From contig MKSR01000012.1 of assembly GCA_001898145.1 (NCBI GenBank), positions 248,001 to 312,000 of the forward strand: a stretch of 64,000 bases of DNA, given 5' to 3'. Shown one piece after another: positions 8,054 to 57,232 of the stretch. The translations under genes were made by a program, and so were the position numbers. Numbering within the stretch: position 1 is the stretch's first letter; every line of letters begins with the position of its first letter. Source of the stretch: Dyadobacter sp. 50-39 (GTDB taxonomy: Bacteria; Bacteroidota; Bacteroidia; Cytophagales; Spirosomataceae). The notes beneath the pieces are model-generated. The model saw nothing but the letters and a program-made list of their open reading frames with translations, searched no databases and was not told the DNA's origin.

Positions 8054-8062
8054 TTATTTTGA

Positions 8063-8070
8063 TAATTTTG
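8063..8070 (+). promoter_or_regulatory. Predicted -7 element for the pseudouridine synthase gene
   Basis: TAATTTTG fits TAnnTTTG, 21 bp before the ATG at 8092, in the short divergent gap next to the PLP-enzyme start. Confidence 0.45.
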
Positions 8071-8091
8071 TTGATCGTAACTCCAAAACGA

Positions 8092-38499: not shown

Positions 38500-39450
38500 A
38501 TGGAACACCACGAACAGGATACCACCTCCCGGCGCGACTGGCTCAAAACCATTGCGCTCGGCGGCGCAGCGGCCATGACCGGCCACGTTGCACAGGCAGA
38601 AACAGCGCCTGCGCCTGCCGCACGCCGGATTCCCATTGCTGTATCGACGTACTCTTACTGGCATTTCCAGGAACAAAAGTATCCGATCGACAAGGTGATC
38701 GAGGATGCTGCTCGTCTGGGCTTCGATGGCGTGGAGATCCTGCACCGGCAAATGGAGAATGAGACCGTTCCGTATATGAACAAACTGAAAAGGCTCGCAT
38801 TCGACAACGGACTGGCGCTTCCCCTTCTTTCTATCCATCAGAGCTTTGTGCAGCCGAAGCCGGAAGATCGGAAAAAGGACATTGAACATACTTTAAAATG
38901 TATTAACCTTGCGACCCAAATGGGCATTCCGGCGATCCGGATGAATACCGGAAGCTGGCGCACCGTGAAGCGCGATGCCAACTATTACAAGGATGGCAAA
39001 GAGCCGCCGATCCAGGGTTTCACAGACCAGGATGCCATCAAATGGTGCATAGAATCGATGCAGGAATGCCTGATGGCTGCCGAGAAAGCGGGGATCGTTC
39101 TGGCGATCGAAAACCATTGGGGGCTATCATCGAACATCGACTACCTGCTCGAAATCTACAAGCCGCTGGCTTCGTCGCCAGCGATGGGTATGAATGTGGA
39201 CACAGGTAATTTCGTCGGTGATCCGTACCCGCAATTCGAACGCCTGGCACCCTACGCAACGATCGTTCAGGCCAAAACCTATTACGGCGGCGGCCATTAT
39301 TATGACCTCGATCTGGATTACAAAAGGATCGCAGGCATTTTAAGAAAAGCGAATTTCAAAGGTTATGTATCGCTGGAAATGGAAGGAAAGGAAGATCCGG
39401 CCACGGCGGTACCCAAAAGCCTGAAAATACTAAGGGAAGCGCTCAGTTAG
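38500..39450 (+). CDS. Tat-exported sugar phosphate isomerase/epimerase-like TIM barrel
   Basis: 316 aa. The N-terminus [20 protein letters not shown] is a twin-arginine signal. The AP-endonuclease-2/xylose isomerase-like barrel has metal ligands in [32 protein letters not shown] and [12 protein letters not shown]. Export suggests that the substrate is a free sugar or glycoside, not a phosphate; related exported barrels act on keto-glycosides or as sugar isomerases. It follows SusD by 41 bp and ends in a terminator, so it closes the first SusCD operon. Confidence 0.82.
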
Positions 39451-40100: not shown

Positions 40101-41267
40101 TCAATTGCTCCGCCGCGACGACCCCCTCACTACCAGTTCCGTACTCAGTACCCGCTTTTCATTCACGATGATTTCATCTGCGTCTACCAGTTGCAAGACC
40201 CACTCCGCGGTCGTACGGCCGATCTGGTTTGTGGGTTGGCGAACGGTGGTGAGACCAGGGCCGATATAGGCCGATTCCGCATTATCGCTGAAACCGACCA
40301 CGCCAAGTTCGTCAGGAATGGAAATGCCTTTTTCCATGGCCATAAGCATGATTTCGATGGCCGAAGAATCGTTGACGGCGAAGATGGCGTCGGGGCGCTC
40401 GGACAGGTCGAGCAGGTACTGCCCGTAAATACGGGCTTTTTGCTGGGTGAGCATGCCCTGGATAATCATATGGTCCTGAATGGGCTTGCCGTACTTTTCC
40501 ATCGCCGCCTTGTAGCCGCGCAGGCGCTCCTGGCTTACCTGCAGGGTGAGCGGCCCGCCCAGGTGCGCAATGCGCTCGTAACCATTCAATATCAAATGCT
40601 CCACGGCTTTGAACGAAGCCTCAAAGTCGTTCACCACCACTTTGGGTACGTCGATCTGATCGCATACCCGGTTGAACTGGATCAGCGGAATGCCCCGCTT
40701 CGCAAAAAGGCTCAGGTGATCGAAGTTATTCGTCTCCTGGGTAAGGGAAATCAACAAGCCGTCGATCCGGTTGGCCAGCATGGCTTTCGTATTCGAGATT
40801 TCGACCTGGTACGACTCGTTACTCTGCATAATAGTGAGATTGTACCCGGCCTCGGTCAGTACCTCGTGGGCACCGATGATCACGTTTGGGAAAAACTGGT
40901 TCTGGAATTCTGGAACGATCATTCCAATTGTGTTCGTCCTGCTCTTTACAAGATTATAGGCGAGCTGATTGGGCTGGTAGTCGAGCTGGGCAGCCTTGTC
41001 AAGCACAGCCTGGCGCGTCTCCGGGCTGATGTCCGCGTGCCCGTGAAGCGCTCGCGAGACCGTCGAATTGGACACACCGAGTGATCTGGCGATGTCGATA
41101 ATGGTTGTCTGGTGGCGCTTACGCTTGACGAGCGATTCGACCGAATCATCCTTTTCGGAATGCGTGAAATAGTAGTTGCACCATTTGCACAGGTAGCGCT
41201 GCTTTCCCCGGACATACCCCGCTTTCATGATGCCGTCTACCTGCGCACATTTCACACATTGAATCAT
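40101..41267 (-). CDS. LacI-family repressor fused to an InsA-like zinc ribbon
   Basis: 388 aa. Residues 1-35 form a zinc ribbon with C4-x2-C7 and C27-x2-C30 (KAGYVRGKQRYLCKWCNYYF), the pattern found at the N-terminus of IS1 InsA transposase proteins. A LacI helix-turn-helix follows at about 54-76 (IIDIARSLGVSNSTVSRALH) and then a full periplasmic-binding-like effector domain (TNTIGMIVPEFQNQFFPNVI, AIFAVNDSSAIEIM, TTVRQPTNQIGR). It probably controls the divergent SusCD operon from the palindrome at 41378-41409; the effector is likely a sugar. ATG 41265-41267 is the start that begins just before the first Cys pair. Confidence 0.85.
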   Translation of the reverse strand: MIQCVKCAQVDGIMKAGYVRGKQRYLCKWCNYYFTHSEKDDSVESLVKRKRHQTTIIDIARSLGVSNSTVSRALHGHADISPETRQAVLDKAAQLDYQPNQLAYNLVKSRTNTIGMIVPEFQNQFFPNVIIGAHEVLTEAGYNLTIMQSNESYQVEISNTKAMLANRIDGLLISLTQETNNFDHLSLFAKRGIPLIQFNRVCDQIDVPKVVVNDFEASFKAVEHLILNGYERIAHLGGPLTLQVSQERLRGYKAAMEKYGKPIQDHMIIQGMLTQQKARIYGQYLLDLSERPDAIFAVNDSSAIEIMLMAMEKGISIPDELGVVGFSDNAESAYIGPGLTTVRQPTNQIGRTTAEWVLQLVDADEIIVNEKRVLSTELVVRGSSRRSN

Positions 41268-41335
41268 ACTACTTGTACTTTTTAAATAAAAACCCTTTTC
41301 AATACCGAACCAGCCCCGCATTTCAACACGGTTCA

Positions 41336-41343
41336 CAAAAATA
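41336..41343 (-). promoter_or_regulatory. Predicted -7 element of the LacI-type regulator gene
   Basis: Minus-strand TATTTTTG fits TAnnTTTG, 68 bases before the regulator ATG. It lies within the 339-bp divergent gap 41268-41606. Confidence 0.45.
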
Positions 41344-41606: not shown

Positions 41607-44600
41607 ATGAAGAAAAAAATACGTGACTTGTTCCTGCTCGGCTTTCTCTGCCTGGGCATCACCCAGTCGCTGCTTGCGCAAAACGTAACGGTGAAGGGCA
41701 AAGTGACAGACGATAAGGGTGAGATGATCCCCGGCGCGAGCGTGACGGTGAAAGGCTCACAGCAAGGAACACTGACCGACGCGGAAGGCATGTACTCGGT
41801 TGAGGTGGAAGGCAATGCAACACTGGTGTTCTCGTTTCTCGGTTACCTGAGACAGGAAGTGGCTGTTTCCAACCGGTCTACGATCAACGTTTCGCTCCAA
41901 ACCGACACCAAAGCATTGGAAGAGGTAGTAGTTGTAGGCTACGGAACCCAGCGTAAAGTCGAAACGACAGGCTCCATTGCCTCCGTAAAAGCGGCCGATC
42001 TCGTGCAGACGCCCGTTGCGAACATCGCACAAGGCTTGCAGGCACGGGTGGCAGGGGTTCAGATCAACCAGAACTCCGGCTCTCCCGGCGGTAACATCAG
42101 CGTACGTATCCGCGGTACCAATTCCATCAATGGGTCGTCCGAACCCCTTTATGTTATCGACGGTATCCAGGTTTCCAATGGCGGCGGGATCACCGATGTC
42201 AGCCCCCTTTCCACGATCAACCCTAATGATATCGAGTCGGTTGAAGTCCTGAAAGATGCATCCGCGTCGGCCATTTACGGAGCTAGGGCCGCCAACGGTG
42301 TAATCCTCATCACCACCAAACGAGGTAAAAACGGCGCTACACGGGTTACTTACGACGGATACTATGGTTCGCAGAAAGTAAACAAAACACTGGATGTGCT
42401 GAATGCGTCACAGTTTGCACAGCTTGAAAACGAAGTATTCAAGAACAACTATTATCCAGACCCGGCATCGCTCGGCGAGGGTGTTAACTGGCAAAAACTC
42501 ATTTTCCGGAAGGCGCCTATCCAGAACCATCAGTTGTCTATCAACGGCGGCAGCGAAAAAACGCAGCTCGCTATCTCGCTCAATTATTTCGACCAGGACG
42601 GAACGTTGATCGGCTCTCAGTTCCAGCGTTATTCCTACCGGCTGAACCTGGATCACCGTATCAGCAAAAACATTAAAATAGGTACCAGCATTCTGGGGAG
42701 CTATTCCATTGCGAACGGTATACAGACAGGCGGCACCAACATCGGCGATGGCGGCGCGGTACTCTCGTCCGTTCTGGGAGCGGCGATCGGGGCACCTCCC
42801 ACCCTGCAACCCTACCGTGCCGACGGCAGCATTTTCCCCTTCGGCGAGCAAGCCGGCGGCCAATACCGTGAAGTGGTCAACCCATTGAATTTCTCGGCCG
42901 TACTCAACAAACGTTCAATCAAGCGGACGCTGGCGAATATTTACGGAGAAGTAGCGCTTTTTAAAGGCCTTACCTACCGTGCATCATTTAACCTCGACCA
43001 GAAAGGTGAGCTGTTCGACGGCTATTCACCGCGTTCGATCGTCAACAAAAGCGACCTGAACGATAATTCCGGCTCCGGCACGAAAGCCAACTCCAACTAC
43101 CTCGCATTGCTTCACGAAAGCATCCTGACTTACAGCACCACGTTTGCTAAAAACCATTCTTTCAAAGCCACTGCCGTATTTGGTACGCAGCTTGAACAGG
43201 GTAATTCCAATACCATGAATGCATCGGGATTCCCGAACGATGCGACGAAAAACGAGGCAATGCAGCTCGCATTGACCCGCACGATCAGCAGCGGCCGGAG
43301 CTCCCAGCGACTGGATTCGTACATGGCCCGGGTTAACTACGGTTTCAAGGATAAGTTCTTCATCGACGTCACCGCCCGTGCCGACGGATCGAGCAAGTTC
43401 GGGGCCAATCATAAATACGGGGTATTCCCCGCCGTATCGGCCGCTTACCGGATCATCGAGGAGTCATTTATGAAGGATCTAAGCTGGCTTTCCGATTTCA
43501 AACTGCGCGGTAGCTATGGTATCACAGGAAATGCAGGCGGGATCGACCCTTACCAGTCGCTGGCCACGGTAGCTTCCGGGAACAGCTACATGATCAACCA
43601 CACCTATGTAACAGGTATCGAACCCACCGGCATTGCAAATCCAGACCTGCGCTGGGAACGGTCGAAACAGGCTAACATCGGGGTCGACATCAGTTTGCTG
43701 AACAACCGGATCAGCGTGATCGCCGATGTTTACCACAAAAAGACGGATGATCTGCTGTATGTAAAAACACTTCCGCTAAGCTCGGGCTATGGTGCCATTA
43801 CCGGGAACTTCGCCGCATTGCAGAACAAAGGGCTCGAACTGGCCGTGAATGCCCGTATCCTGGATGGGAAACTGAAATGGGATGTTTCGGCGAATTCGAC
43901 CATCAACCGTAACAAGGTGCTCGGCCTGGATGGCGGCGTTACCACCGAGCGCTTCATGACAACCTACACGATCCTCAAAGTAGGGCAGCCGCTGGGTATG
44001 TTTAAAACCTATGTTTTCGACGGCGTTAATCAAACCGGTGAAACCATTCTGCCGGGTTATGACGGCCGTGTGGGTGGCCACAAGGTGAAAGACGTAACCG
44101 GCGACGGCCAGATCACCGCAGCCGACCAGGTTATCGTGGGCAACCCGAACCCCAAGTTCATCTACGGCCTTTCCACCAACCTGTCCTATGCCGGATTTGA
44201 CTTCGCTGCATTCCTCTCAGGTTCACAAGGCAATGATATTTACAATGCCAGCCGCCTGTCATTCGAAAACCCGCTCGGACAGCGCAACCTGCTGGCCGGT
44301 GTTGCCGACCGCTGGTCGCCGACCAACCCCAACAATCAGTATGTCAGCGGCTTCCAGGGCGGCCGGTTGCCGATCACCAATTACGTGGTAGAAAACGGCT
44401 CTTACCTGCGTTGCAAAAACCTGACGCTGGGCTATACCGTGCCGAGGTTCAAGGGCGTGCAGGCTATCCGTTTGTACGTGAGTGCGAACAACCTGTTCAC
44501 GATCACCAAATACAGCGGATACGACCCGGAAGTTAATACCTATGCAGGCTCCAACACGGTGATCGGGGTCGACAACTTCGTGTACCCGCAGTCTAAATCA

Positions 44601-44630
44601 TTCCTGGGAGGTATCCAGGTTACATTCTGA
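41607..44630 (+). CDS. SusC/RagA TonB-dependent transporter (no STN domain)
   Basis: 1007 aa. Signal peptide KIRDLFLLGFLCLGITQSLL to about residue 24, then a carboxypeptidase-D-like domain (VKGKVTDDKGEMIPGASVTV, about 27-110), plug (GARAANGVILITTKRGK near 235) and barrel. The missing STN domain means that it does not signal to FecR, consistent with control by the divergent LacI-type repressor. Imports an unknown glycan with the SusD partner 35 bp downstream. Confidence 0.95.
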   Translation: MKKKIRDLFLLGFLCLGITQSLLAQNVTVKGKVTDDKGEMIPGASVTVKGSQQGTLTDAEGMYSVEVEGNATLVFSFLGYLRQEVAVSNRSTINVSLQTDTKALEEVVVVGYGTQRKVETTGSIASVKAADLVQTPVANIAQGLQARVAGVQINQNSGSPGGNISVRIRGTNSINGSSEPLYVIDGIQVSNGGGITDVSPLSTINPNDIESVEVLKDASASAIYGARAANGVILITTKRGKNGATRVTYDGYYGSQKVNKTLDVLNASQFAQLENEVFKNNYYPDPASLGEGVNWQKLIFRKAPIQNHQLSINGGSEKTQLAISLNYFDQDGTLIGSQFQRYSYRLNLDHRISKNIKIGTSILGSYSIANGIQTGGTNIGDGGAVLSSVLGAAIGAPPTLQPYRADGSIFPFGEQAGGQYREVVNPLNFSAVLNKRSIKRTLANIYGEVALFKGLTYRASFNLDQKGELFDGYSPRSIVNKSDLNDNSGSGTKANSNYLALLHESILTYSTTFAKNHSFKATAVFGTQLEQGNSNTMNASGFPNDATKNEAMQLALTRTISSGRSSQRLDSYMARVNYGFKDKFFIDVTARADGSSKFGANHKYGVFPAVSAAYRIIEESFMKDLSWLSDFKLRGSYGITGNAGGIDPYQSLATVASGNSYMINHTYVTGIEPTGIANPDLRWERSKQANIGVDISLLNNRISVIADVYHKKTDDLLYVKTLPLSSGYGAITGNFAALQNKGLELAVNARILDGKLKWDVSANSTINRNKVLGLDGGVTTERFMTTYTILKVGQPLGMFKTYVFDGVNQTGETILPGYDGRVGGHKVKDVTGDGQITAADQVIVGNPNPKFIYGLSTNLSYAGFDFAAFLSGSQGNDIYNASRLSFENPLGQRNLLAGVADRWSPTNPNNQYVSGFQGGRLPITNYVVENGSYLRCKNLTLGYTVPRFKGVQAIRLYVSANNLFTITKYSGYDPEVNTYAGSNTVIGVDNFVYPQSKSFLGGIQVTF

Positions 44631-44665: not shown

Positions 44666-46159
44666 ATGAAAAAGCTTTTAAAAATAACGACATACCTCAG
44701 CGCTGCCGGCGTAGCGCTGCTCGCTCCTTCCTGCCAGCTGGACGAAACGATTTACTCTTCCATTTACACGGAGGATTTCTACAAAACGGCTGCTGACGCG
44801 GAAAAAGGGCTGATTTCCGTTTACGGCGCATTGGGCAGCCTCGGTGGCGGTCCGGCACTTACGCTGATTGCCGATTTCAGCGACGACCAGACCTATCCAC
44901 GCGGGGTGGTAGGGCGCAACACGCTGACACTCTTCACCTACGATGTAAATTACACCACGCAAAAAAGTAATTCCCGGACCAACGAATCGCCCCAGCAGAT
45001 ATGGGCATCGTGTTACAACGGTATCGAAAAGGCCAACTGGGTGATCGCGAAAGTACCCGGCGCGAATATGGACGAAACCCGCAAAAAGCAGATCATTGGT
45101 GAAGCGTATTTCCTGCGGGCATTTTACCACTGGTTCCTGACGAAAAATTTCGGCGATGTGCCGGTCAAGATCACGCCGAGCTACACGGCGGAGGAAGCGC
45201 TGACTGCCAAAAGTTCAAAGGCCGACGTATACAAGCAGATTTACGCCGACCTCGACCAGGCATTGGCGGCGGGATTACCTTCGTACCCCAACGTAGACAA
45301 GGGACGTGTTGCCAAAGAAGTAGTGAGCGCATTGTACGCAAAGGCCGCTCTTTACAACGAGGACTGGGCCAAAGCATTGGAAAAAGCCAAAGAAGTGATC
45401 AGCTCCGGCAAATACGCGCTGATGGCGGATGTACGGGATGTATACAAATACGATAAGGAAGATGCCGCACGGATAGAAAACATGTGGGCGTTCGAAGCCG
45501 ATCCGGTTTCTCCGGGGCTGGGCCACCAGCTTACCGGCCTTTGCGGCCCTCCGGGAAGCGCCGGACCGGAATTCGCCCGCACTTCGTTCGGGTCGATGTT
45601 TGCATACCAGGCTTTCTTCGATTCATTTGAACCGGCCGACAAGCGCCGCACCCTGCTGGATACAAACTATGTAAACAAAGCCGGCGCCATTGTTCCCCAG
45701 AAAAGCATTACCCCTATTACGACCAAAGGTGTACTGATCAAGAAGTACCAGGACCCCGTTTCGACCATCGGCATGATACCGAACATACCGATTTTCCGGC
45801 TTCCCGACGTGTACCTGATCGCGGCCGAAGCCGAGGCACGGCTGAACGGTGCTACGGCAACTGCCTATGAGTTTATCAATCCTGTCAGAAAGCGTGCCGG
45901 CCTGGCCGAGCTGAAAACCGGCCTCACCAAAGACGCATTCATTGAAGCGGTTTTGCAGGAACGTGCATGGGAATTCTTCGCCGAGGGAGACCGTTGGTAT
46001 GACCTCACCCGCACCGGCAAATTCCTGACGGTGATCCCGAAAGCGGTGAATGACGTGTATCCGACCCGCAACGTTACCGCCAAAAACAAGTATTTCCCCA
46101 TTCCGCAGGACGAAATCAATGCCAATCCGAAGCTCGAACAGAACCCGGACTGGAAATAA
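44666..46159 (+). CDS. SusD/RagB glycan-binding lipoprotein
   Basis: 497 aa lipoprotein with signal ending LLAPSC (Cys at about residue 23). SusD features: EAYFLRAFYHWFLTKNFGDV in the helical core and RLPDVYLIAAEAEARLNG and ERAWEFFAEGDRWYDLTRTG near the C-terminus, which ends with FPIPQDEINANP. Partner of the SusC encoded 35 bp upstream; the redox genes follow 18 bp later on the same strand. Confidence 0.95.
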   Translation: MKKLLKITTYLSAAGVALLAPSCQLDETIYSSIYTEDFYKTAADAEKGLISVYGALGSLGGGPALTLIADFSDDQTYPRGVVGRNTLTLFTYDVNYTTQKSNSRTNESPQQIWASCYNGIEKANWVIAKVPGANMDETRKKQIIGEAYFLRAFYHWFLTKNFGDVPVKITPSYTAEEALTAKSSKADVYKQIYADLDQALAAGLPSYPNVDKGRVAKEVVSALYAKAALYNEDWAKALEKAKEVISSGKYALMADVRDVYKYDKEDAARIENMWAFEADPVSPGLGHQLTGLCGPPGSAGPEFARTSFGSMFAYQAFFDSFEPADKRRTLLDTNYVNKAGAIVPQKSITPITTKGVLIKKYQDPVSTIGMIPNIPIFRLPDVYLIAAEAEARLNGATATAYEFINPVRKRAGLAELKTGLTKDAFIEAVLQERAWEFFAEGDRWYDLTRTGKFLTVIPKAVNDVYPTRNVTAKNKYFPIPQDEINANPKLEQNPDWK

Positions 46160-46177: not shown

Positions 46178-47110
46178 ATGATCCAACTACTGCTTTTGTA
46201 TTCACTGTGCTGCACCTCCCCAAACCGGGAAGGACGCATACGTGAATACAAAGTCGTCGAAAACGATACGCTCAGCTACACCCTGAAACTCGCGCTCGAC
46301 GACAAAGGACAGCCGCAATACTTTTTCAGGAACATCTTCACACCGGTTTGCTATACCAATGAATGCAAGCCGGTGTATATCAATTTCTATTGGGATTTGC
46401 TGGGTAACTATCAGCGCTATGACCTGCCCGAGGGCAAAGTGCTCACAAAAGTGGATCACGACGAGTTCAAGGAAGAGGATTACCAGAAATTACAGGATAT
46501 CCTCGCGCAGAACAATTCCATTTTCGCAGACCTCAAAATGGAAGACCTGATCGCGAAAGGCACCGATAACCTGACGGACTCTGTCGATGCGAAAGCCGGT
46601 GCGACTTTAAAAACCATTAAAAACCAGGTGATCGACGGCGCGGTTTACACCTGCTACACCCTCTGGCACATTGCTTACGGAAAAGCGGTGCCGGAAATGC
46701 AGAAAATCATCGAAACGTATTCCAACGATGCCCTGCTGCACCGGTTTCTGGAAAGCAAAAACCATCATTACCAATACTGGGCAATGGACAAGGTTATGGA
46801 TAAAAATGGCCGCGTGCAAAAGCCTTTTGAAAGGGATATCGAAACGATCATCGCAGGCAGGAATGGCTTCATCGCCAAATATGCCTTGCAGCATGTAGGC
46901 AATGATTTTTTAAAAACGGAGCAACGACAGAACTGGCTTTGGGAGACCTATCAAAAAACAGGTTATGCCATGCAAATAGCCATCCTGAAAAAGCTGAATA
47001 CCAGCAAAATCCCCATTTCCAAATCCTTGGCAGCAAGCCTGCAAACCAGCCTGCCCAATGCCAATGAAGAACAAACTTTACTAATCCAAAACATCCTGCA
47101 AAAACAATGA
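46178..47110 (+). CDS. Unrecognised exported protein with a flavinylation-like motif
   Basis: 310 aa, no family recognised with confidence. A short hydrophobic N-terminus (MIQLLLLYSLCCTSP) with Cys11/Cys12 suggests a lipoprotein, though the lipobox is not canonical. Residues 137-143, DAKAGAT, followed by LKT, resemble the ApbE target motif Dxx(S/T)GAT, where FMN is attached to the Thr (here Thr143). The following NQVIDGAVYTCYTLWHIAYG resembles the helix after the motif in FMN-binding domains. The second half is helical, perhaps HEAT-like. The ApbE gene two positions downstream in the same operon supports a covalent flavin; the position before GAT is Ala rather than Ser/Thr. The stop overlaps the oxidoreductase start (ATGA). 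Confidence 0.6.
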   Translation: MIQLLLLYSLCCTSPNREGRIREYKVVENDTLSYTLKLALDDKGQPQYFFRNIFTPVCYTNECKPVYINFYWDLLGNYQRYDLPEGKVLTKVDHDEFKEEDYQKLQDILAQNNSIFADLKMEDLIAKGTDNLTDSVDAKAGATLKTIKNQVIDGAVYTCYTLWHIAYGKAVPEMQKIIETYSNDALLHRFLESKNHHYQYWAMDKVMDKNGRVQKPFERDIETIIAGRNGFIAKYALQHVGNDFLKTEQRQNWLWETYQKTGYAMQIAILKKLNTSKIPISKSLAASLQTSLPNANEEQTLLIQNILQKQ

Positions 47111-49026
47111 ACATCTCCCATATCCCCGGACTAAAGTCCGGGGCAATAGATTATTCTCAATTGCCTTCGGCAACGTTGCCGGGAGCAAAAAAATCCCTTT
47201 GCCCCGGGTTTCAACCCGGGGATCACAGCAAGTTGTTGGGGATTATTATTTTGATGTTTTTGATGTTTCCTGTTCTGGCGCAAAATCATGTTTTTGTGGA
47301 AACAGAATCTTTTGAGGACAAGGGCGGCTGGGTGATCGACCAGCAATCTTTTGTGGTGATGAATTCTTCCTACATCATGGCGCATGGAATGGGCCGGCCG
47401 GTGAAGGACGCTGTTACCTCGGTAAAATTCCCGAAAACCGGCAAGTACCGTTTGTGGGTCCGCACGAAGGACTGGGCGCCGTTTCCGAAAGGACCGGGTA
47501 AGTTCCAGGTGATTCTGGATGGTAAACCGACCGGACAAACTTTTGGAGAAAGCGGTTCTGACACCTGGAAATGGTACGACGGCGGTGTGATAGATATTAA
47601 GAATGCCGATACAAAACTCGCATTGAAAGACCTTACCGGGTTCAATGGCCGCTGCGATGCACTGCTTTTCACCGACGATGTGAAATTCACGCCGCCTAAC
47701 GAGCTCGAAGCATTGACCGCATTCCGCAGAAAGCTCCTCAACCTGACCGACAAACCCCAGGATGCCGGCAGGTATGACCTCGTAGTGGTAGGCGGCGGCA
47801 TTGCAGGTACTTGCGCGGCTATTTCGGCAGCGCGGATGGGCCTTACGGTGGCGCTGATCCAGGACCGGCCCGTCCTCGGCGGCAACAATAGTTCAGAAGT
47901 ACGTGTACACTTGATGGGTGATGTGGACAAAAACCATTTTCCCAAACTCGGCCGCATTGTGCGCGAAATGGACAACGGCGACCCGGGCAATGGCAACCCG
48001 GATGCGAAAGAATATGGCGATGCCCGCAAAATCTCCATCGTAAAAGCAGAGAAGAACATTTCGCTTTTCCTGAATACCCACGTTTTTAAAGTTGAAAAAG
48101 AAAACGACATTATAACCGCAGTGGTGGGTCGCGATATTGCTACCAACCAGGAGCGCCGCTTTTCGGGCTCGTTCTTCTCGGATTGCACCGGCGACGGCAC
48201 CGTGGGCTTCCTGGCCGGCGCGGAGTTTCGCATGGGGCGCGAAAGCAAGGCCGAGACCGGCGAATCGCTCGCGGCCGAGAAGAGCGACGATTTTACCTTA
48301 GGCACTTCCAATTTGTGGGCTTCTGCGGACCGTGATACCGTCTCGTCCTTTCCCGAAACGCCCTGGGCAATGCAGTTTTCAGACGAATACCATATCGACG
48401 AACCTAAATCCGACTGGCAGTGGGAAACCGGGTTCGGCAACTTCAATACCATCACCCAGGCCGAGCAGATCCGCGACCATAACCTCCGCGCCATTTACGG
48501 CAACTGGTCGTATCTGAAAAAGAACAAGGCTGCCAAGTACGGCAAAAAGGAACTGGCATGGGTGGCCTACATCGGCGGCAAACGCGAGTCGCGCCGGATC
48601 ATCGGCGATTATGTACTCAATCAAATGGACATCCAGGAAGGTAAATTTTACCCCGATGGCTCGGTAACCGCCACCTGGACCATCGACTTGCATTTTCCCG
48701 ATGCCAAAAACAGCAAGTATTTCGAAGGGCAGGAGTTCTTCGCGGGTACCAAGCACATTAAAGTAGCGCCCTACACGATTCCCTACCGCTGCCTTTATTC
48801 CAAAAACATCCAAAATCTCTTCATGGCGGGACGCAACATCAGCACTACACACGTGGCGTTCGGAAGCACCCGCGTAATGCGTACGTGCGGGATGATGGGC
48901 GAGGTAGTGGGCTTTGCTTCCTACATCGCGAACAAATACAAAACCAGCCCGCGCGGCGTGTACAAAGACCATTTGCCCGAACTCACCGGCATCCTGAAAG
49001 GCGAAACGCTCGCGCCCCAACCCTGA
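47107..49026 (+). CDS. Secreted FAD-dependent oxidoreductase with N-terminal beta domain
   Basis: 639 aa from the ATG that overlaps the previous stop. Residues about 43-60 (LLGIIILMFLMFPVLAQ) are a signal peptide, about 65-185 a carbohydrate-binding-like beta domain, and the rest an FAD_oxidored (PF12831-type) domain: DLVVVGGGIAGTCAAISAAR dinucleotide loop, LGGNNSSEVRVHLMGD, GKRESRRIIGDYV and NLFMAGRNISTTHVAFGSTR. Substrate unknown; related proteins occur in glycan loci. The first ~42 codons translate a palindromic repeat (47123-47222), so real translation may begin at TTG 47233 or 47236 instead. Likely extracytoplasmic partner of the flavin proteins beside it. Confidence 0.82.
   Translation: MNISHIPGLKSGAIDYSQLPSATLPGAKKSLCPGFQPGDHSKLLGIIILMFLMFPVLAQNHVFVETESFEDKGGWVIDQQSFVVMNSSYIMAHGMGRPVKDAVTSVKFPKTGKYRLWVRTKDWAPFPKGPGKFQVILDGKPTGQTFGESGSDTWKWYDGGVIDIKNADTKLALKDLTGFNGRCDALLFTDDVKFTPPNELEALTAFRRKLLNLTDKPQDAGRYDLVVVGGGIAGTCAAISAARMGLTVALIQDRPVLGGNNSSEVRVHLMGDVDKNHFPKLGRIVREMDNGDPGNGNPDAKEYGDARKISIVKAEKNISLFLNTHVFKVEKENDIITAVVGRDIATNQERRFSGSFFSDCTGDGTVGFLAGAEFRMGRESKAETGESLAAEKSDDFTLGTSNLWASADRDTVSSFPETPWAMQFSDEYHIDEPKSDWQWETGFGNFNTITQAEQIRDHNLRAIYGNWSYLKKNKAAKYGKKELAWVAYIGGKRESRRIIGDYVLNQMDIQEGKFYPDGSVTATWTIDLHFPDAKNSKYFEGQEFFAGTKHIKVAPYTIPYRCLYSKNIQNLFMAGRNISTTHVAFGSTRVMRTCGMMGEVVGFASYIANKYKTSPRGVYKDHLPELTGILKGETLAPQP
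47123..47222. repeat. Composite REP-like palindromic element
   Basis: Three palindromes in 100 bp: CCCCGGACTAAAGTCCGGGG (47124-47143), CGGCAACGTTGCCG (47168-47181) and CCCCGGGTTTCAACCCGGGG (47202-47221). The outer two also form a larger inverted pair (TCCCCGG...CCGGGGCAA against TTGCCCCGG...CCGGGGA). This looks like a REP/BIME-type element inserted between two coupled genes. No RAYT transposase gene is in the window. Confidence 0.72.
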
Positions 49027-49032
49027 CCGACA

Positions 49033-50091
49033 TTGAAAAACGTTGTGACACATATTGCCGGAGTAATGTCCACCCTCTTCACCGTGCTGCCGTTGGCGAC
49101 AATGGCAGCCACGCGGGAGGATGTGCCCATGATTTCGATCGATGGCGAGGCACAGGGCACCACGTATCACATCCGCTATTTTGACCCGCAAAACCGCAAT
49201 TTCAAGCATTCGATCGACTCCCTGCTGACGGAATTCGACAAATGCCTCTCGCTGTACCGGGCTGATTCCGAGCTTTCTGCATTCAATGCCGGCGCACAGC
49301 ATGCCAACCTGAAACATACCATCCGGTCGCCGTGGTTTTATGAGGTTTTGGTTAAATCAAAAGAGATCCATACTGCTACCGGTGGCGCATTTGATCCTAC
49401 CATCATGCCGCTTTCGGAGGCTTATGGCTTTGGTAACCAAAAGAATACGGACCCCGAGCATGTGAACGCCGATTCGCTGCTGCAATGGGTGGGTTTTAAA
49501 CAAATTGAATTTGACGCGAAAGAAATCCGGACACGGCCGGGCGTACGGCTGGACTTCAATGGCATTGCGCAAGGCTATTCTGTGGACGTTCTCGGAAGCT
49601 TCCTGAAAAGCCGCCAGGTCAGTCGCTTCATGGTCGAGATCGGCGGGGAGGTGGTTTGTTCCGGCACTAAAAACGGGGGTACCAGTTGGGTAGCGGGCAT
49701 CGAAAATCCGCTTCAACCCAACGCATTCGCCGCAACGGTGCGCCTTACCGACCGCGCCATGACCACCGCCGGCAATTACCATAACCGTATCACCCGCAAC
49801 GGCATTACCTTCAATCACATTATAGACCCTCGGACGGGCGACCCGCGTACGGGCGATCCGCGGGCGGACACCCATGCAGAGCCTGCGCTGCTGAGCGTGA
49901 CGGTGTTTGCCAAGGATGCCATCACCGCCGATGGCTACGACACCGCATTCTTCGTAATGGGCCTTGAAACGACCAAAAGCTTTTTAAAAAACCGGAAAGA
50001 TATCGACGTGTACGTGCTTTACACCAATGAGGAAGGGCAGCTAATGTCTTTCGCCTCCGATGGTATCAAAGACCTTATCCAGGAAAAATGA
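49033..50091 (+). CDS. apbE: FAD:protein FMN transferase ApbE
   Basis: 352 aa, exported (MKNVVTHIAGVMSTLFTVLP signal). ApbE uses FAD to attach FMN to Thr of target proteins outside the cytoplasm. Motifs: AQGTTYHIRY, GGAFDPTIMPL, VRLDFNGIAQGYSVD, FNHIIDPRTG, and DGYDTAFFVMGL near the C-terminus with the Mg-binding Asp. The start is TTG at 49033, which gives a proper signal peptide; ATG 49066 is possible. Odd: HIIDPRTG is extended into two and a half tandem DPRTG units (about 49824-49865). Sits between the FAD oxidoreductase and a toroid-like protein in one operon; ATGA overlap with the next gene. Confidence 0.93.
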   Translation: MKNVVTHIAGVMSTLFTVLPLATMAATREDVPMISIDGEAQGTTYHIRYFDPQNRNFKHSIDSLLTEFDKCLSLYRADSELSAFNAGAQHANLKHTIRSPWFYEVLVKSKEIHTATGGAFDPTIMPLSEAYGFGNQKNTDPEHVNADSLLQWVGFKQIEFDAKEIRTRPGVRLDFNGIAQGYSVDVLGSFLKSRQVSRFMVEIGGEVVCSGTKNGGTSWVAGIENPLQPNAFAATVRLTDRAMTTAGNYHNRITRNGITFNHIIDPRTGDPRTGDPRADTHAEPALLSVTVFAKDAITADGYDTAFFVMGLETTKSFLKNRKDIDVYVLYTNEEGQLMSFASDGIKDLIQEK

Positions 50092-52667
50092 GAAGAATAA
50101 CCCTGTTACTACCGATTTTAATTACCGTCCTGACGGTTCTGCACGCCCCGGCACAGCGAACGTCCGTGAAAGCCCTGACGAACAATTCGATCCGCCTGCA
50201 ATGGCGCGAAACCGGCGGCGCATTGAAGATGGAAGAAATGGCCGTGAACAAAAACGGCCAATGGTCCCAGGTGGCTGCACCTTCGGGAGAATATACCTTG
50301 CTGTATTCCGAAAGCAAACCGTCAACCGAATCTGCCGAAACGTTTGAGAAGATAACCGGGGGCAAATTTCCCGAAGATGCCTATCATTATCAGCAAACGC
50401 AATGGAAGGAGAGTACCACCGGCGTGGCGCTGAATACCGCCGGTCAGGCATTCCACTTTTTCCCGCAAACCGCCGCCGCGAAGGATAACGGCCTTGAATT
50501 CAAGTCGGAAACGGATGTAGCGACGGTAACAGCTCATTGGAAGATCGATCCGCGTTTTCCGAGCGACATTCAGGTTATGATGACGCTGACTGCCAGGAAA
50601 AAGGGCTTTTTCTCCCTCGCAACCCCTACCCTGGCCGCGTTGCCCGTCGACCAGATGAGCTGGGTGTCGGTACCGGGGTATTTTCAGGGGAATTTCATGC
50701 AGGAAAATTTTGCGCTGGCCTATGCTTACGGCCACGGCATTCCAACGCGTCCGGCGGTGTACCGCGAACGTTGTGCGTCGACATTGAGCCCGCTCGTGAG
50801 CAACAAGATCGGCATTACCTGGGCCGTGATCCCGGAACCCGGACTTGCGCGTGATCCCTGGGCGAAGGACCAGATTACCCAGATCGACTGGCATCTCGGC
50901 TTATCGCATATGAACCGGAAGGCGCAGCTTTCGCCTACATTATATTACCCTGTGCTGGGTGAAGACAAGTCGGAAATGCAGGCAGGGCAATCGGTTTCTT
51001 ACACGTTCCGTTATAGCCTTGTAGCCGGCGACTGGTTCGAGGTTACCCGGCATGCCGCCGTCGATATTTACAAGTTCCGCGAGACGCTGGCCTTGCGCCA
51101 GAGCAAGCAGGCATTGACCGATCGCATTGAGAAAATGCACCATTACCTCACCGACCCCAAGACTTCACTCTGGAATATCGAGGAGTACAAAGGCAAGCAG
51201 ATCGGCGCGCAGTCGTACCTCGGCGGCGTGGTGGGCTCGGATAGGGATGCGATGAAAAACTCCGATTACGGTGCCATGTGGATGCTCGCCAATGCCACCC
51301 AAGACCCGGAATTAACCCAAAAAGTACTTCCGCCTGCCGAAAACTTCAAACTCGTACAGCAGCAGACCGACGAAGGTTTCTTCAAGGGCGCCGTTGAAGG
51401 CCAGTATTATCTAGCCAAAAAGAAAAAGTTTGTCGAAGAATGGGGCGAGGTGGTGGAGCCGATTGCATTGACCTACTATGTGATGCTCGACGTGGGTAAT
51501 ATGCTGCTTTTCGAACCGGAAAATACGGAATTGAAGGAGCGCTTGCGGATTGGAGCTGAAAAGCTGCTGAGCTGGCAGCGCGAGGACGGCAGTTTTGCCG
51601 TGGCCTACGACCGCAAGACAGAGCAGGAAACTTTCAAGGATATTAAAGATGTGCGGCCTACATTCTACGGGCTGATCGTCGCCCACCGCATTCTTAAAGA
51701 CGACAAGTATTTGAAAGCCGCCGAAAAGGGAGCAGACTGGTTTCTCCAAAACGCTGTGGAAACCGGCGCCTTCCTGGGCGTATGCGGGGACGCACGCTAC
51801 GCACCGGACTTCGCCACGGGCCAGTCGGCACAGGCATTGCTCGATTTATTTGATCTAACCCAAAACAAAAGGTACCGGGACGCCGCCGTAACCTGCGCGA
51901 AGATTTACACTTCGTCTATCTACACACACCCGATTGCCGACCACAAACCCAAAACCGTGAACGGCGCGGCACGAGAAGACTGGGAGATCAGCCAGACAGG
52001 CCTTAGCTTTGAGCACGGCGGTATTTTCGGCTCGGCTACCCGGCACGGGCCCATTCAGCTGGCCAGTCATGCGGGCATGTTCATCCGCATTTACCAGCTT
52101 ACCGGCGAGCAGCTTTTCGCCGATATGGCACGCGCCGCCGCCATTGGCCGGGATGCATTTGTGGACAGCAAAACCAGTGTGGCTTCTTATTACTGGAATG
52201 CCATGAACCGCGGCGCCGGGCCTTACCCGCACCACGCCTGGTGGCAGATCGGCTGGATCACCGACTACCTCCTTTCCGAAGCGGCGTTGCGCTCGAACGG
52301 CAAGGTTACATTCCCGCGCGGCTTTGTGACGCCCAAAGTCGGCCCGCACCAGACCTACGGCTTCGCGCCGGGCGATGTGTTCGGCGACAAGGCTAATCTC
52401 ACCATTAAAGAAGGGTTCGTAGTGGCGGATAGTCCGTCTATCGACCCGATTATTTCAAAATCCACCACCAAAAACACCTATTACATCACACTGCTCAACA
52501 ACAGTCCGCAGCCGACGGCATTCAACCTGAAAATCGACGGCAGCAAGGTTTCGGAAACCAATGCCCCGGCGATGAAATGGGCCGAAACAGGACAAAAAGG
52601 GGCTATTACCAATATCAAACTGCCCGCATTCGGCGCGCGGACGTTGGTAGTGAGCTATAAGCAGTAG
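50088..52667 (+). CDS. Large secreted protein with predicted (alpha/alpha) toroid domain
   Basis: 859 aa, signal peptide MRRITLLLPILITVLTVLHA. No family recognised. About residues 25-330 look beta-rich; about 340-760 contain repeated helices with WLANA-, GAEKLLSWQREDGSFAVAYD- and QSAQALLDLFDLTQNKRYRD-like pairs that suggest a six-hairpin glycosidase or lyase toroid; the end is a small beta domain. It may act on the same glycan as the SusCD pair. ATGA overlap with apbE. Its stop TAG is the start of a heptamer repeat unit. Confidence 0.6.
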   Translation: MRRITLLLPILITVLTVLHAPAQRTSVKALTNNSIRLQWRETGGALKMEEMAVNKNGQWSQVAAPSGEYTLLYSESKPSTESAETFEKITGGKFPEDAYHYQQTQWKESTTGVALNTAGQAFHFFPQTAAAKDNGLEFKSETDVATVTAHWKIDPRFPSDIQVMMTLTARKKGFFSLATPTLAALPVDQMSWVSVPGYFQGNFMQENFALAYAYGHGIPTRPAVYRERCASTLSPLVSNKIGITWAVIPEPGLARDPWAKDQITQIDWHLGLSHMNRKAQLSPTLYYPVLGEDKSEMQAGQSVSYTFRYSLVAGDWFEVTRHAAVDIYKFRETLALRQSKQALTDRIEKMHHYLTDPKTSLWNIEEYKGKQIGAQSYLGGVVGSDRDAMKNSDYGAMWMLANATQDPELTQKVLPPAENFKLVQQQTDEGFFKGAVEGQYYLAKKKKFVEEWGEVVEPIALTYYVMLDVGNMLLFEPENTELKERLRIGAEKLLSWQREDGSFAVAYDRKTEQETFKDIKDVRPTFYGLIVAHRILKDDKYLKAAEKGADWFLQNAVETGAFLGVCGDARYAPDFATGQSAQALLDLFDLTQNKRYRDAAVTCAKIYTSSIYTHPIADHKPKTVNGAAREDWEISQTGLSFEHGGIFGSATRHGPIQLASHAGMFIRIYQLTGEQLFADMARAAAIGRDAFVDSKTSVASYYWNAMNRGAGPYPHHAWWQIGWITDYLLSEAALRSNGKVTFPRGFVTPKVGPHQTYGFAPGDVFGDKANLTIKEGFVVADSPSIDPIISKSTTKNTYYITLLNNSPQPTAFNLKIDGSKVSETNAPAMKWAETGQKGAITNIKLPAFGARTLVVSYKQ

Positions 52668-52766: not shown

Positions 52767-54491
52767 ATGAACAACACCACCGATACCATTGTCATTCTCG
52801 TATTCTCTGCATTCGTGATGGGCATTGGGATGCTTTTTGCCCGGACGGGGCGCAACCTTAAATCGTTTTTCGCCGGTGGTGAAGCCGTGCCCTGGTTCAT
52901 CGGCGGGCTATCGCTGTTTATGAGCTTCTTCTCGGCCGGTACTTTTGTGGCCTGGGGTTCCATTGCTTACAAACACGGCTGGGTAGCCATCACCATCCAA
53001 TGGACCATGTGCATTGGTGCGCTCATTACCGCCGTGTACCTCGCTCCGCGCTGGAAACGTACCGGCGCATTGACAGCAGCCGAATTCATCCGCGAGCGCC
53101 TTGGGTTGCCTGTTCAGAAGACTTACATCTTCATTTTCACATTGGTTTCGGTGTTTATCAAAGGTTCGGTGCTCTATCCTGTCGCCAAGCTGGTGAGCGC
53201 CTCGCTGGATCTGCCTCTGGTACCCTGCACAGTTGGTTTGGGCATTTTCATGATAGCCTACACCGCGGTGGGAGGTCTTTGGGCGGTGATGGTGACCGAT
53301 ATTCTCCAATTCGTGGTACTGTCCGCCGCAGTGTTCATTCTGCTGCCGCTTTCATTTAATAAAGTTGGCGGCTGGGAGGGGTTCACAAGCCGCATTCCGG
53401 ATGACTTTTTCAACCTGCTCAACGGCGAGTACACGCTCGGCTTCGTGGCTGCATTTGTGATTTACCATATCTGCTACATCGGCGGCAACTGGACGATGGT
53501 TCAGCGCTACACGAGTGTCGACAGCGAGAAATCGGCCAAAAAAGTGGCGTTCCTCTTTGCCGGCCTATATCTCATCAGCCCGGTGATATGGATGTTCCCG
53601 CCGATGATTTACAAGGCCATTAACCCTGCATTGACCGGCCTGGATACGGAAAACGCCTACCTGATGATCTGCAAGCTGGTATTGCCTCCCGGTCTGCTCG
53701 GCCTGATGCTTACCGGCATGTACTTCTCCACCTCCGCCAGCGCCAACACCGCATTGAACGTCGTGTCCGCGGTGTTCACCAATGACATTTACAAGGGGAT
53801 GGTTAACCCGGCTGCTTCCGACAGGCAGCTCATCCGCGTCGCCCGGGGCTCTTCCTGGTTTTTCGGGCTGGGGATGATCGGCATTGCATTGCTGGTACCG
53901 TCCGCGGGTGGTATTGTGGAAGTGGTGCTCAGTATTTCGGCGATTTCCGGTGGTCCGCTGCTGGCCCCGCCGCTGTGGGCATTGTTTTCCAAAAGGCTGA
54001 ATGGCAGGACCACGCTATGGGTTACCGGCATCGGATTGTGTGTCAACCTGTTTTTCAAAACACTCGCTCCGCTCCTGCTCGATTTCAAACTCTCCCGTGG
54101 AATGGAAACCATTGTGGGCGTGGGGCTGCCGCTGCTGCTATTACTCGCTTATGAGCTATGGGCAAGGTCCAAAAACATAGTGGCCGATGAATATACGATC
54201 TACATGCTGTCCAGAGACCAGCGCAAACAGGAAGCAGCTACAGCCGATCCCGAAGAGGCATTTGAGATTAAAAAGCAGAACCGCTTCGGCTTGCAGGTAA
54301 TCGCCGCGGCGCTGCTATTCACAGCGATGATGCTGTTTATTCTAAGCTTTCTGACGACTGATGGGACGGTGATTACGGCCTGTGTGGCGGTGGTAGTGCT
54401 GCTCTCGGCGGCGATACCGTTTTCGGCGGCGCGGAAGGTGGTGCTTACGGCTCAGGAGTATTCAGCATTTGAAGAAACTCGTCCACTTTAA
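52767..54491 (+). CDS. Sodium:solute symporter (SSS family)
   Basis: 574 aa with about 13-14 transmembrane helices. SSS features: KSFFAGGEAVPWFIGGLSLF, SAGTFVAWGSIAYKHGW, GGLWAVMVTDILQFVV and YFSTSASANTALNVVSAVFT. It moves a small solute with Na+ across the inner membrane, here probably the sugar or acid released by this locus. Placed 99 bp after the toroid-like gene, behind heptamer site A. Its 3' end overlaps the convergent PIN gene by 47 bp. Confidence 0.9.
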   Translation: MNNTTDTIVILVFSAFVMGIGMLFARTGRNLKSFFAGGEAVPWFIGGLSLFMSFFSAGTFVAWGSIAYKHGWVAITIQWTMCIGALITAVYLAPRWKRTGALTAAEFIRERLGLPVQKTYIFIFTLVSVFIKGSVLYPVAKLVSASLDLPLVPCTVGLGIFMIAYTAVGGLWAVMVTDILQFVVLSAAVFILLPLSFNKVGGWEGFTSRIPDDFFNLLNGEYTLGFVAAFVIYHICYIGGNWTMVQRYTSVDSEKSAKKVAFLFAGLYLISPVIWMFPPMIYKAINPALTGLDTENAYLMICKLVLPPGLLGLMLTGMYFSTSASANTALNVVSAVFTNDIYKGMVNPAASDRQLIRVARGSSWFFGLGMIGIALLVPSAGGIVEVVLSISAISGGPLLAPPLWALFSKRLNGRTTLWVTGIGLCVNLFFKTLAPLLLDFKLSRGMETIVGVGLPLLLLLAYELWARSKNIVADEYTIYMLSRDQRKQEAATADPEEAFEIKKQNRFGLQVIAAALLFTAMMLFILSFLTTDGTVITACVAVVVLLSAAIPFSAARKVVLTAQEYSAFEETRPL

Positions 54492-55171: not shown

Positions 55172-57232
55172 ATGAAGCGATTAACCCTTATAACTTTCTC
55201 ATTAATACTCCTGTTAACCGGCACAAGGTCGACGGCTCAGTCGGGCGCGAGCCAGCTTAATGCGCCCCGGTACCACATTCGGCAGCCGGATGCCATTCCG
55301 CTGCACGGCGAGTGGTGGTTCCTGCTTGATCCCGCGGGGCTGGGTATTGCCAACCAGTGGTACCGCGATGGCATCGCGCAGGAAAGCCGGCAAGACAAAG
55401 TAACAGTGCCGCACTGCTTCTCAACGGACCGGCGTTACGAGTTTTATTCCGGTATGGCCTGGTACCGTAAGGCATTTGCGTGGAAAAAGACTTCCGGCAA
55501 GCGTGTAATCCTGCATTTCGACGGCGCCTACTATAAAACCGATGTATGGATGAACGGGCAGAAGGTTGGCGAACACGAGGGCGGCTACACTCCATTCCGT
55601 TTCGATGTGACGGATCAGCTGAAAGACGGCGATAACCAGCTGGTAGTGGCGGTGAACAACGATACCTGGAAAACGAATACAATCCCCGGCATCAAGGATA
55701 CGGGCGGCGTCAACGACGGTTTCATCGGGTGGGTGAACTATGGCGGCATTACCCGGCCGGTGTACCTGACGATCGAGCCGGAAGTGTATACTGAAAATGT
55801 GAAGATCGAAACCGTGCCCGATCTGGCGAAAGGGACAGCGGTAGTGAAAGCGAAAATAAGGGTGCGGAATGCATCAGCCAATGCGGCTACGCCCAAAACA
55901 GATATAGTTGTTTTATGGGATAAAAAGCCCCTCCCTTTGAAATGGAAAACCAATGCGGCAAGCATACCTGCCGGGCAGACTGCACTCCTCGAAACCGAGG
56001 CAACATTGACGGCTGCGCAAACCAGGCTATGGGACCTGGACCAACCGAATCTGTATGAAATGAGAACGGTGGTGGGAGCAGATACACTCGCGACGCAGTT
56101 TGGAATCAGGAAGATTGAAGTAAGCGGCGTACAACTGTTGTTGAATGGGAAGCCCGTCAAAGTTGGTGGCGGCAACCGGGTGATCGATTATCCGGAACTG
56201 GGCTCGCTGGAACCCGACTGGCTCGTTGAGAAGGACTTCCGCCTGATGAAAGAAGCAGGTATGGAATTCCAGCGCCTTACACATTACACGCCTTCGGAGT
56301 ACTTCTACGACCTGGCCGACCGCTATGGCATGCTCATCATCACCGAAGCAGGCAACTGGCAGCTTACGCCCAGGCAAATGGACAACGATTCGATGCGCAC
56401 CAAATTCCGTTCGCAGTTCCGTGAAATGGCGGAGCGCGACTGGAACCACCCGAGTGTGATCGCTTACAGCGTTGGAAATGAATATGGTTCTACAACCGCC
56501 TCCGGCCAGCGCTGGACCAAAGATATGATCGCCTATGCACGCGAGCTCGACCCTACGCGGTTGTACACCTTCGCGAGTATGCTGTTGAATTCACTGCCTG
56601 CCAGGCCGGAGGACGAGGCGAGCCAGTATGTCGATTTCGTATCTACCAATACTTATGGCGGCCATGCGAAGTCGCTCGACCACATTCACAAGCTTTACCC
56701 GGACAAACCGGTGTTTATCAGCGAATGGGGGACCCGTTCGGATGGCAAGGGCGGCGAGGCCGGGCAGGCACAGCATTTAAGCGACGTGATGGTGGAAATC
56801 CGGAAGCGGCCGTTTGTGGTCGGTGCCTCGTGGTGGACCTATAATGACTATCGAAGCAAGCTGTTCGGTACCAATGTGAACGGCTTCCGGCCTTGGGGCA
56901 TTGTAGGGCCAGACCGCTCGCCGAGACTGGCCTACGCGGTCCATCAGAAGGAATTCTCGCCGGTTGTGATCGAGAAGGTAAACTTCCGGACGGGGGATGC
57001 AGGAGTTCACCAGTTGACGCTGAAAATCACTTCACGCGGCGACTTCCCTACCCGTCCGCTGAAAGGTTATACCCTGAAAGCCGGGGAAACCAGCATTGCG
57101 CTGCCCGACCTGAACCCGGGAGAAAGCGAAGAAGTGACGGTACCGGTCCGCGGATTCGACAAACAAATCCATGTGACCGTCCACAAACCGACCGGTTTCC
57201 TGACAACACAGACTGACATCGAACTAAAATAA
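55172..57232 (+). CDS. GH2 glycoside hydrolase (beta-galactosidase/glucuronidase type), secreted
   Basis: 686 aa, signal peptide MKRLTLITFSLILLLTGTRS cut near TAQ. Sugar-binding domain first (GMAWYRKAFAW, HFDGAYYKTDVWMNG), an immunoglobulin-like domain, then the catalytic barrel: YSVGNEYG holds the acid/base Glu (about 435) and PVFISEWGTRSDG the nucleophile Glu (about 517). Removes a beta-linked hexose or uronic acid; the exact sugar cannot be read from sequence. Followed by the second FAD oxidoreductase after 63 bp. Confidence 0.9.
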   Translation: MKRLTLITFSLILLLTGTRSTAQSGASQLNAPRYHIRQPDAIPLHGEWWFLLDPAGLGIANQWYRDGIAQESRQDKVTVPHCFSTDRRYEFYSGMAWYRKAFAWKKTSGKRVILHFDGAYYKTDVWMNGQKVGEHEGGYTPFRFDVTDQLKDGDNQLVVAVNNDTWKTNTIPGIKDTGGVNDGFIGWVNYGGITRPVYLTIEPEVYTENVKIETVPDLAKGTAVVKAKIRVRNASANAATPKTDIVVLWDKKPLPLKWKTNAASIPAGQTALLETEATLTAAQTRLWDLDQPNLYEMRTVVGADTLATQFGIRKIEVSGVQLLLNGKPVKVGGGNRVIDYPELGSLEPDWLVEKDFRLMKEAGMEFQRLTHYTPSEYFYDLADRYGMLIITEAGNWQLTPRQMDNDSMRTKFRSQFREMAERDWNHPSVIAYSVGNEYGSTTASGQRWTKDMIAYARELDPTRLYTFASMLLNSLPARPEDEASQYVDFVSTNTYGGHAKSLDHIHKLYPDKPVFISEWGTRSDGKGGEAGQAQHLSDVMVEIRKRPFVVGASWWTYNDYRSKLFGTNVNGFRPWGIVGPDRSPRLAYAVHQKEFSPVVIEKVNFRTGDAGVHQLTLKITSRGDFPTRPLKGYTLKAGETSIALPDLNPGESEEVTVPVRGFDKQIHVTVHKPTGFLTTQTDIELK

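Follow-up and report, generated by a model that had tools for sequence, protein, structure and literature searches.

A candidate covalent-FMN carrier paired with an exported PF12831 oxidoreductase in a SusCD operon of Dyadobacter sp. 50-39

A stretch of 64,000 nt from Dyadobacter sp. 50-39 (contig MKSR01000012.1, positions 248,001 to 312,000; hereafter the window) contained, directly downstream of a SusC/SusD gene pair, genes encoding a 310-amino-acid (aa) exported protein, designated FMNP, an exported FAD-dependent oxidoreductase of family PF12831, and an exported ApbE flavin transferase. The gene order, the export signals, an invariant acceptor Thr, a conserved gene pair and the linkage to ApbE, all seen in the sequences, point to an extracytoplasmic module of two flavoproteins, in which flavinylated FMNP would take electrons from a glycan-oxidising PF12831 enzyme. 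This is, as a whole, the account towards which we lean. The genes and the motif concerned are as follows.

46178..47110, + strand, 310-aa exported protein FMNP, candidate covalent-FMN carrier
46586..46606, + strand, codons of DAKAGAT (residues 137-143, predicted acceptor Thr143), derived from the residue numbers
47107..49026, + strand, exported FAD-dependent oxidoreductase, PF12831, start possibly 47233 or 47254
49033..50091, + strand, exported ApbE flavin transferase, PF02424, start TTG 49033 or ATG 49066

The original prediction had described these three genes as a tight, overlapping run after SusC and SusD, and the open reading frames, their order and their overlaps were as described. The distances between consecutive genes, from SusC through SusD, FMNP, the oxidoreductase, ApbE and a GH127-like protein to a symporter, were 35, 18, -4, 6, -4 and 99 bases; thus, 4-bp overlaps join FMNP to the oxidoreductase and ApbE to the GH127-like gene, and 6 bp separate the oxidoreductase from ApbE. 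The source genome is 7.72 Mb, and the closest named relatives of FMNP (84-93% identical) are from Dyadobacter species.

A conserved candidate acceptor in FMNP

The published flavinylation consensus is D-x-x-[S/T]-G-A-[S/T], as given in a portion of PMC12052999. FMNP possessed D137-A-K-A-G-A-T143, the DAKAGAT that had been placed at residues 137-143. The predicted acceptor Thr143 was invariant in the 119 unique motif-covering sequences, window included, with Asp137 kept in 118 and Gly141 in 114 of them, and both x positions varied across the family while Asp and Thr stayed. The motif had first been written as Dxx(S/T)GAT; the Thr of that pattern held throughout (119/119), whereas its fourth position is Ala in the window and the canonical D-x-x-[ST]-G-A-T occurred in 78 of the 119. 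Homologues that keep ApbE while losing the motif were looked for, and none of the 119 lacked the Thr, five having SAT in place of GAT. When the 310-aa sequence was shuffled 20000 times, D..[AST]GA[ST] arose in 16 cases, and the invariance of Thr among relatives is a stronger test than shuffling.

The family counted 212 matching stretches. The two collections used here comprised 133 FMNPs, with 14 proteins common to both and 118 distinct. Locus L070, a piece of which reads DAMSGAT, is missing from the neighbourhood set owing to a run of N, and a weak match (G090:C1:2323772, E 1.8e-4) was left out of the locus set. Matches restricted to the helical part, found in 4 of 12 genomes (E 3e-5 to 8e-4), were judged to be chance.

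No Pfam or NCBIfam model covering the FMNP family was found. The proposed search against FMN-binding domains gave no match of the window protein to FMN_bind (PF04205) at E 1, and 2 matches among 58 relatives, the best with an E-value of 0.075; for DUF2271 and DUF3570 there was none for the window protein at E 1 and none for the 58 relatives at E 0.1. Stray Pfam matches among these relatives were to Cnd1, a helical-repeat family (1/58, E 0.00028), and OrtA (9/58, best E 0.009). In the structural model, a hydrophobic N-terminus (helix 2-10) is followed by a beta domain at about residues 20-82, a low-confidence stretch at 134-139, and an ARM/HEAT-like helical C-terminal half. Foldseek with the full-length 310-aa model found no match at E 0.001; in VIA-align with the same model, helical repeats filled the rows, so that the absence of FMN_bind there proves nothing.

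FMNP had been called lipoprotein-like. Of 135 family rows, 1 matched a crude N-terminal lipobox pattern, and YSLCC of the window protein, judged by eye, is no classical lipobox; the description should therefore read signal peptide. Cys58 and Cys63 were kept in 134/134 covering family rows and lie on either side of a modelled beta hairpin, according to which a disulfide between them is probable; the pair is possibly redox-active.

Linkage to ApbE

The window ApbE matched PF02424 with an E-value of 1.4e-68 (231.8 bits versus a cut-off of 25.6), and H262, D295, D300, T304 and T245, which we take to be the catalytic residues, were kept in more than 95% of 55 aligned rows. A short tandem duplication, RTGDPRTGDP, was observed just after His262, beside the conserved HIIDP.

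ApbE substrates are expected to be exported proteins encoded in genomes with apbE, which mostly lies in their own cluster, and FMNP is such a protein, with ApbE two genes downstream. ApbE was encoded on the same strand within 8 kb at 36 of 80 named FMNP loci, and 7 of the 27 genus labels included such a locus; in a genome with three apbE genes, one would fall within this distance and on this strand by chance with a probability of about 0.003 per locus. None of nine oxidoreductase loci without FMNP had ApbE (0/9 versus 36/80; Fisher P 0.0096), the former examined in fetched stretches of 12-16 kb; in L308, one flank spans just about 2 kb. Thus, ApbE tracks the motif protein, not the enzyme.

Three apbE genes were present in the genome of the window. 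A genome-wide search for FMN_bind, DUF2271 and DUF3570, with NqrB/RnfD, flavodoxin and FMN-reductase types lying outside it, gave no match, and the usual ApbE targets of these three families are thus missing. Since the Thr is invariant, ApbE is linked and the genome is without these families, flavinylation of Thr143 is very probable, and the comparison in this respect agrees with the original prediction that the 310-aa protein is a likely ApbE target. A 2021 flavinylation survey states, in a part of its text, that some apbE genomes had no known target and that rarer substrates were still to be identified (PMC8238504); the genome of the window is of this type, and the FMNP family would be a concrete candidate target.

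The third apbE of this genome (L062:9065-10114) lies about 8 kb before the window, and no frame of at least 90 codons with D..[AST]GA[ST] was found in the 19-kb stretch around it. Within the FMNP family, Ala140 was commoner beside ApbE (19/27 Ala loci versus 20/57 S/T loci; Fisher P 0.004, exploratory and uncorrected for relatedness), which might be due to a dedicated transferase or to relatedness.

Pairing with an exported PF12831 oxidoreductase

The oxidoreductase matched PF12831 over residues 224-619 (E 4.3e-75; 254 bits versus a cut-off of 27) and possessed an N-terminal beta-rich domain ahead of the Rossmann motif, which begins at about residue 224. It is a flavoprotein of the two-dinucleotide-binding fold, its nearest folds including those of the quinol:fumarate reductase FrdA, flavocytochrome c3 and urocanate reductase. 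That it is exported was upheld; its listed start at 47107, which adds about 40 residues, may be too early, and TTG 47233 or ATG 47254 is closer to the hydrophobic stretch. Two REP-like 20-bp palindromes, at 47124-47143 and 47202-47221, were observed inside this N-terminal extension; the genome has 11 occurrences of the pattern and none of its reversed control.

FMNP adjoined a same-strand homologue of this enzyme at each of the 80 named loci. Of the distinct FMNPs, 113 of 118 had an adjacent same-strand homologue, three had a split or contig-edge copy and two had none (L061 and L066). Over both collections, an oxidoreductase of at least 400 aa was located within 1.2 kb of 128 of the 133 FMNPs, and three of the other five had a split or contig-edge copy. 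The partner enzymes were of several architectures, namely a signal with an N-terminal beta domain (the window type), Tat with an F5/8-type C domain, a form of 453-454 aa and one of 1054 aa, and the order of the two genes differed between loci.

The paired enzymes were also distinguished by their N-termini, as judged by a crude rule of hydrophobicity and RR applied to scorable entries with duplicates kept. Among 118 scorable FMNP-paired enzymes, 110 had a Sec- or Tat-like N-terminus and none started at the Rossmann motif, versus 22 of 26 unpaired PF12831 enzymes of the same loci, which start at this motif and thus look cytosolic; of three unpaired exported rows, L170 (4963) is 65 bp from an FMNP. 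The window holds both kinds, the unpaired one being:

57296..59569, + strand, second PF12831 oxidoreductase, Rossmann motif at the extreme N-terminus, no FMNP partner

No signal peptide was seen in this second enzyme, which is probably cytosolic. The partnership between FMNP and the exported oxidoreductase was borne out by these comparisons (80/80 named loci, 113/118 distinct proteins), and it is very probable, judging from gene arrangement, that FMNP serves as the electron partner of the enzyme.

Genomic setting

The remaining features of the locus were as follows.

38500..39450, + strand, xylose-isomerase-like TIM barrel (AP_endonuc_2), Tat-like N-terminus, upstream
40101..41336, - strand, LacI-type regulator, upstream and divergent from the SusCD run
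41607..44630, + strand, SusC/RagA TonB-linked outer-membrane transporter (TIGR04056, E 5.6e-267)
44666..46159, + strand, SusD-like protein (Pfam SusD_RagB, E 3.6e-36)
50088..52667, + strand, 859-aa GH127-like protein, signal-type N-terminus (PF07944, 25.4 bits, barely above the cut-off of 24.9)
52767..54491, + strand, sodium/solute symporter (PF00474)
55172..57232, + strand, GH2 family glycosidase, signal-type N-terminus

SusC and SusD are adjacent and the GH127-like and GH2 enzymes lie in the same locus, as in a SusCD polysaccharide utilisation locus. The listing of homologue neighbours that had been proposed gave, besides the oxidoreductase and ApbE counts above, SusC at 74 and SusD at 75 of the 80 named loci.

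Clustering was applied to 293 unclassified neighbours lying within 5.5 kb; seven representatives were scanned, and the other representatives were judged by their first 60 residues. The larger groups were an 848-aa secreted protein (19 loci), sulfatases (19) and CelD_N/GH9-like proteins (12); by eye, anti-sigma factors (11 loci) and sigma factors (9) were recognised, and a weak thioredoxin-like neighbour occurred at 2 loci. The 848-aa protein (L152:7326-9872 and relatives) had no Pfam match and is encoded near FMNP on the same strand; proteins of this type, 60-61% identical, also adjoin exported oxidoreductases without FMNP (L312:8728-11196 and L313:9766-12294).

A parallel arrangement with Gfo/Idh/MocA proteins

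On contig C40 of the same genome (L063:8874-11110), apbE overlaps the end of a gene for a Tat-signal Gfo/Idh/MocA oxidoreductase with DGVTGAT, and SusC and then SusD follow this pair, at 3726-8611. The motif DG[VI][STA]GA[ST] was present in 20 of 24 aligned Gfo/Idh proteins, including that of L063, and absent from four. ApbE was found in the fetched stretch of five of the 20 motif-bearing proteins (L063, L215, L219, L220 and L271); it was also found beside all four without the motif (L272-L275), which argues against a simple rule. At L218:7211-10512 and L220:4267-8441, an exported PF12831 enzyme 48-52% identical to that of the window adjoins a DGISGAT Gfo/Idh/MocA protein instead of FMNP; in L220, ApbE is next door and the Gfo/Idh frame is broken. 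This line is a lead, not a result.

Proposed mechanism and alternatives

From the above we infer flavinylation, electron transfer and a glycan substrate in the following scheme. After export, ApbE would transfer FMN from FAD to Thr143 of FMNP, which in the model stands at a helix start, after the low-confidence and probably flexible stretch joining the beta domain and the helical-repeat half. The exported PF12831 enzyme would oxidise a sugar or glycoside from material captured by SusCD, its FAD becoming reduced; this FAD would hand electrons to the FMN on FMNP, which would pass them to an acceptor encoded outside the operon. The GH127-like and GH2 enzymes may process the products, and the symporter may import them. 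Oxidation of a captured sugar or glycoside is preferred in view of the SusCD, glycosidase and symporter genes of the operon; glycan oxidation by the module has, in our estimate, an even to slightly better than even chance. The choice of oxidation over reduction and the electron acceptor are the least certain parts.

Several observations weigh against this scheme. As to flavinylation, Ala at position 4 of the window motif is outside the published consensus. The same residue occurs in 35 of the 119 sequences, and an FMN_bind protein from the searched genomes (locus L190) also has Ala in DAIAGAT. No ApbE was nearby at 44 of the 80 named loci, where it would therefore have to act in trans; presence of apbE somewhere in the genome, which might have supported such action, was dropped as evidence, being uninformative at 71 of 74 genomes (35/35 with FMNP and 36/39 others). 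Alignment of FMNP with six FMN_bind sequences by hhalign covered 75 columns, the motif being the last of them (E 0.003, probability 10.5%), whereas with 19 sequences only 16 motif columns aligned (E 0.0016, probability 16%), and removal of the motif gave E 0.31. Remote homology was thus rejected, nothing beyond the motif aligning in the larger profile, and membership of FMN_bind is not claimed. The Ala at position 4 and the loci without ApbE suit an account in which FMNP is not flavinylated at all. In it, DxxxGAT would cap a helix for structural reasons, and FMNP would be an adaptor or assembly factor built of helical repeats, holding or maturing the oxidoreductase, with ApbE serving other targets or, as a periplasmic FAD-handling enzyme, helping FAD loading. 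The ARM/HEAT-like repeat of the C-terminal half is a binding fold, and a Treponema relative of ApbE hydrolyses FAD, according to part of PMC4767422. However, the retention of Asp and Thr beside variable x positions is what recognition by ApbE predicts, and the contrast between 0/9 and 36/80 loci ties ApbE to FMNP; an unflavinylated FMNP is accordingly judged improbable.

As to the pairing, the window oxidoreductase was searched in 291 genomes of the order, with four candidates per genome scored. At least 37 matches included its N-terminal domain, one partial match at a contig end being set aside. Among the matches listed, the 22 at 71-100% identity all had FMNP adjacent, and of the 15 at 43-52%, four had FMNP (L067, L068, L072 and L075), two the DGISGAT Gfo/Idh/MocA protein (L218 and L220) and nine neither. 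At least nine exported Tat-type relatives, 48-50% identical, thus stand without FMNP or another motif protein nearby, so the enzyme family can work without FMNP. The genome of the window encodes three further strong PF12831 proteins (333-397 bits), only distantly related to the window enzyme (97-144 bits), which have signal-like N-termini and likewise no FMNP, the genome containing one FMNP. A requirement for FMNP by every exported PF12831 enzyme is ruled out by the nine loci and the three other PF12831 proteins. As a general rule, therefore, the partnership holds in one direction: FMNP implies the enzyme, and the enzyme does not imply FMNP. A flavinylated FMNP might also serve a general envelope electron chain, its adjacency to the oxidoreductase reflecting shared regulation only, the link between the two being a genomic one. 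Against this, paralogous loci retain the pair although their SusCD pairs, oxidoreductase architectures and gene order differ, and such a chain appears very improbable.

As to direction, the fold shared with urocanate and fumarate reductases would suit electron flow either way, and among the recurring neighbours clustered and scanned above, neither a cytochrome nor a membrane electron carrier was recognised. In a reversed scheme, flavinylated FMNP would take electrons from membrane or periplasmic donors and feed a PF12831 reductase acting on a compound imported by SusCD. FrdA, flavocytochrome c3 and urocanate reductase being among the nearest folds of the enzyme speaks for it, as does a passage of PMC8238504 according to which fumarate and urocanate reductases are flavinylated to the benefit of electron delivery from the respiratory chain to the enzyme. 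Given SusCD, the glycosidases and the symporter, oxidation is in our judgement considerably likelier than reduction, and reverse flow is considered unlikely.

If the two-flavoprotein module with a glycan-oxidising enzyme is correct, it would explain where exported flavin enzymes of sugar-uptake operons deliver their electrons and assign a function to about two hundred Bacteroidota proteins, and a known protein modification would thereby gain a new use. A broader proposal, which we put forward tentatively and rate at a little under even, is that ApbE-attached FMN has connected exported glycan oxidoreductases to SusCD operons in Bacteroidota at least twice independently. In one case, a new carrier family of the 310-aa type (beta domain and helical repeat) would serve PF12831 enzymes; in the other, the motif would lie inside exported Gfo/Idh/MocA proteins. 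The carrier would then be a substrate class missing from present surveys, and extracytoplasmic glycan oxidation a use of flavinylation beyond respiration and iron reduction.

Comparison with known systems

In the open-access literature, most subscription journals and bioRxiv being outside the search, no paper among the matches listed joined flavinylation or ApbE with SusC or SusD. A Brucella flavoproteome mentions flavinylation and PF12831 in part of its text (PMC9045290). The closest systems are the ApbE-flavinylated extracytosolic ones described in parts of PMC8238504 and PMC11334425, with which the window shares an exported D-x-x-x-GA-[ST] protein, apbE in the cluster and an adjacent redox enzyme. 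Unlike in the systems described there, FMNP matches no FMN_bind, DUF2271 or DUF3570 domain, the cluster is a SusCD operon, and no transmembrane electron-transfer gene was recognised at FMNP loci; the words SusC and polysaccharide have no occurrence in the main texts of these two papers.

With flavinylated fumarate and urocanate reductases, the module would share an FMN carrier coupled to an extracytoplasmic FAD enzyme of the two-dinucleotide-binding fold. Those reductases have FMN_bind and FAD domains, whereas in the window the carrier and the enzyme are separate genes, the enzyme belongs to PF12831 and FMN_bind is not matched.

LacA belongs to the GMC enzymes and has a cytochrome subunit. Periplasmic glycoside oxidation by LacABC-type glycoside 3-dehydrogenases, with DUF1080 hydrolases, is known, also in Bacteroidetes such as Pedobacter, as part of PMC9007349 describes, and the process proposed here is of the same kind. 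The enzyme family differs from that described there, and no GMC, cytochrome or DUF1080 domain was found in the 11 window proteins scanned. Gfo/Idh/MocA glycoside oxidoreductases, for example DgpA in the portion of PMC11239390 concerned, are likewise sugar oxidoreductases, unrelated in sequence to the window enzyme; in Bacteroidota, a branch of them has Tat-like N-termini and DG[VI][STA]GA[ST], sometimes beside apbE, and occurs in other loci, just twice beside an oxidoreductase of the window type. What is new is the carrier family, its oxidoreductase partner and the SusCD setting, periplasmic glycoside oxidation itself being already known.

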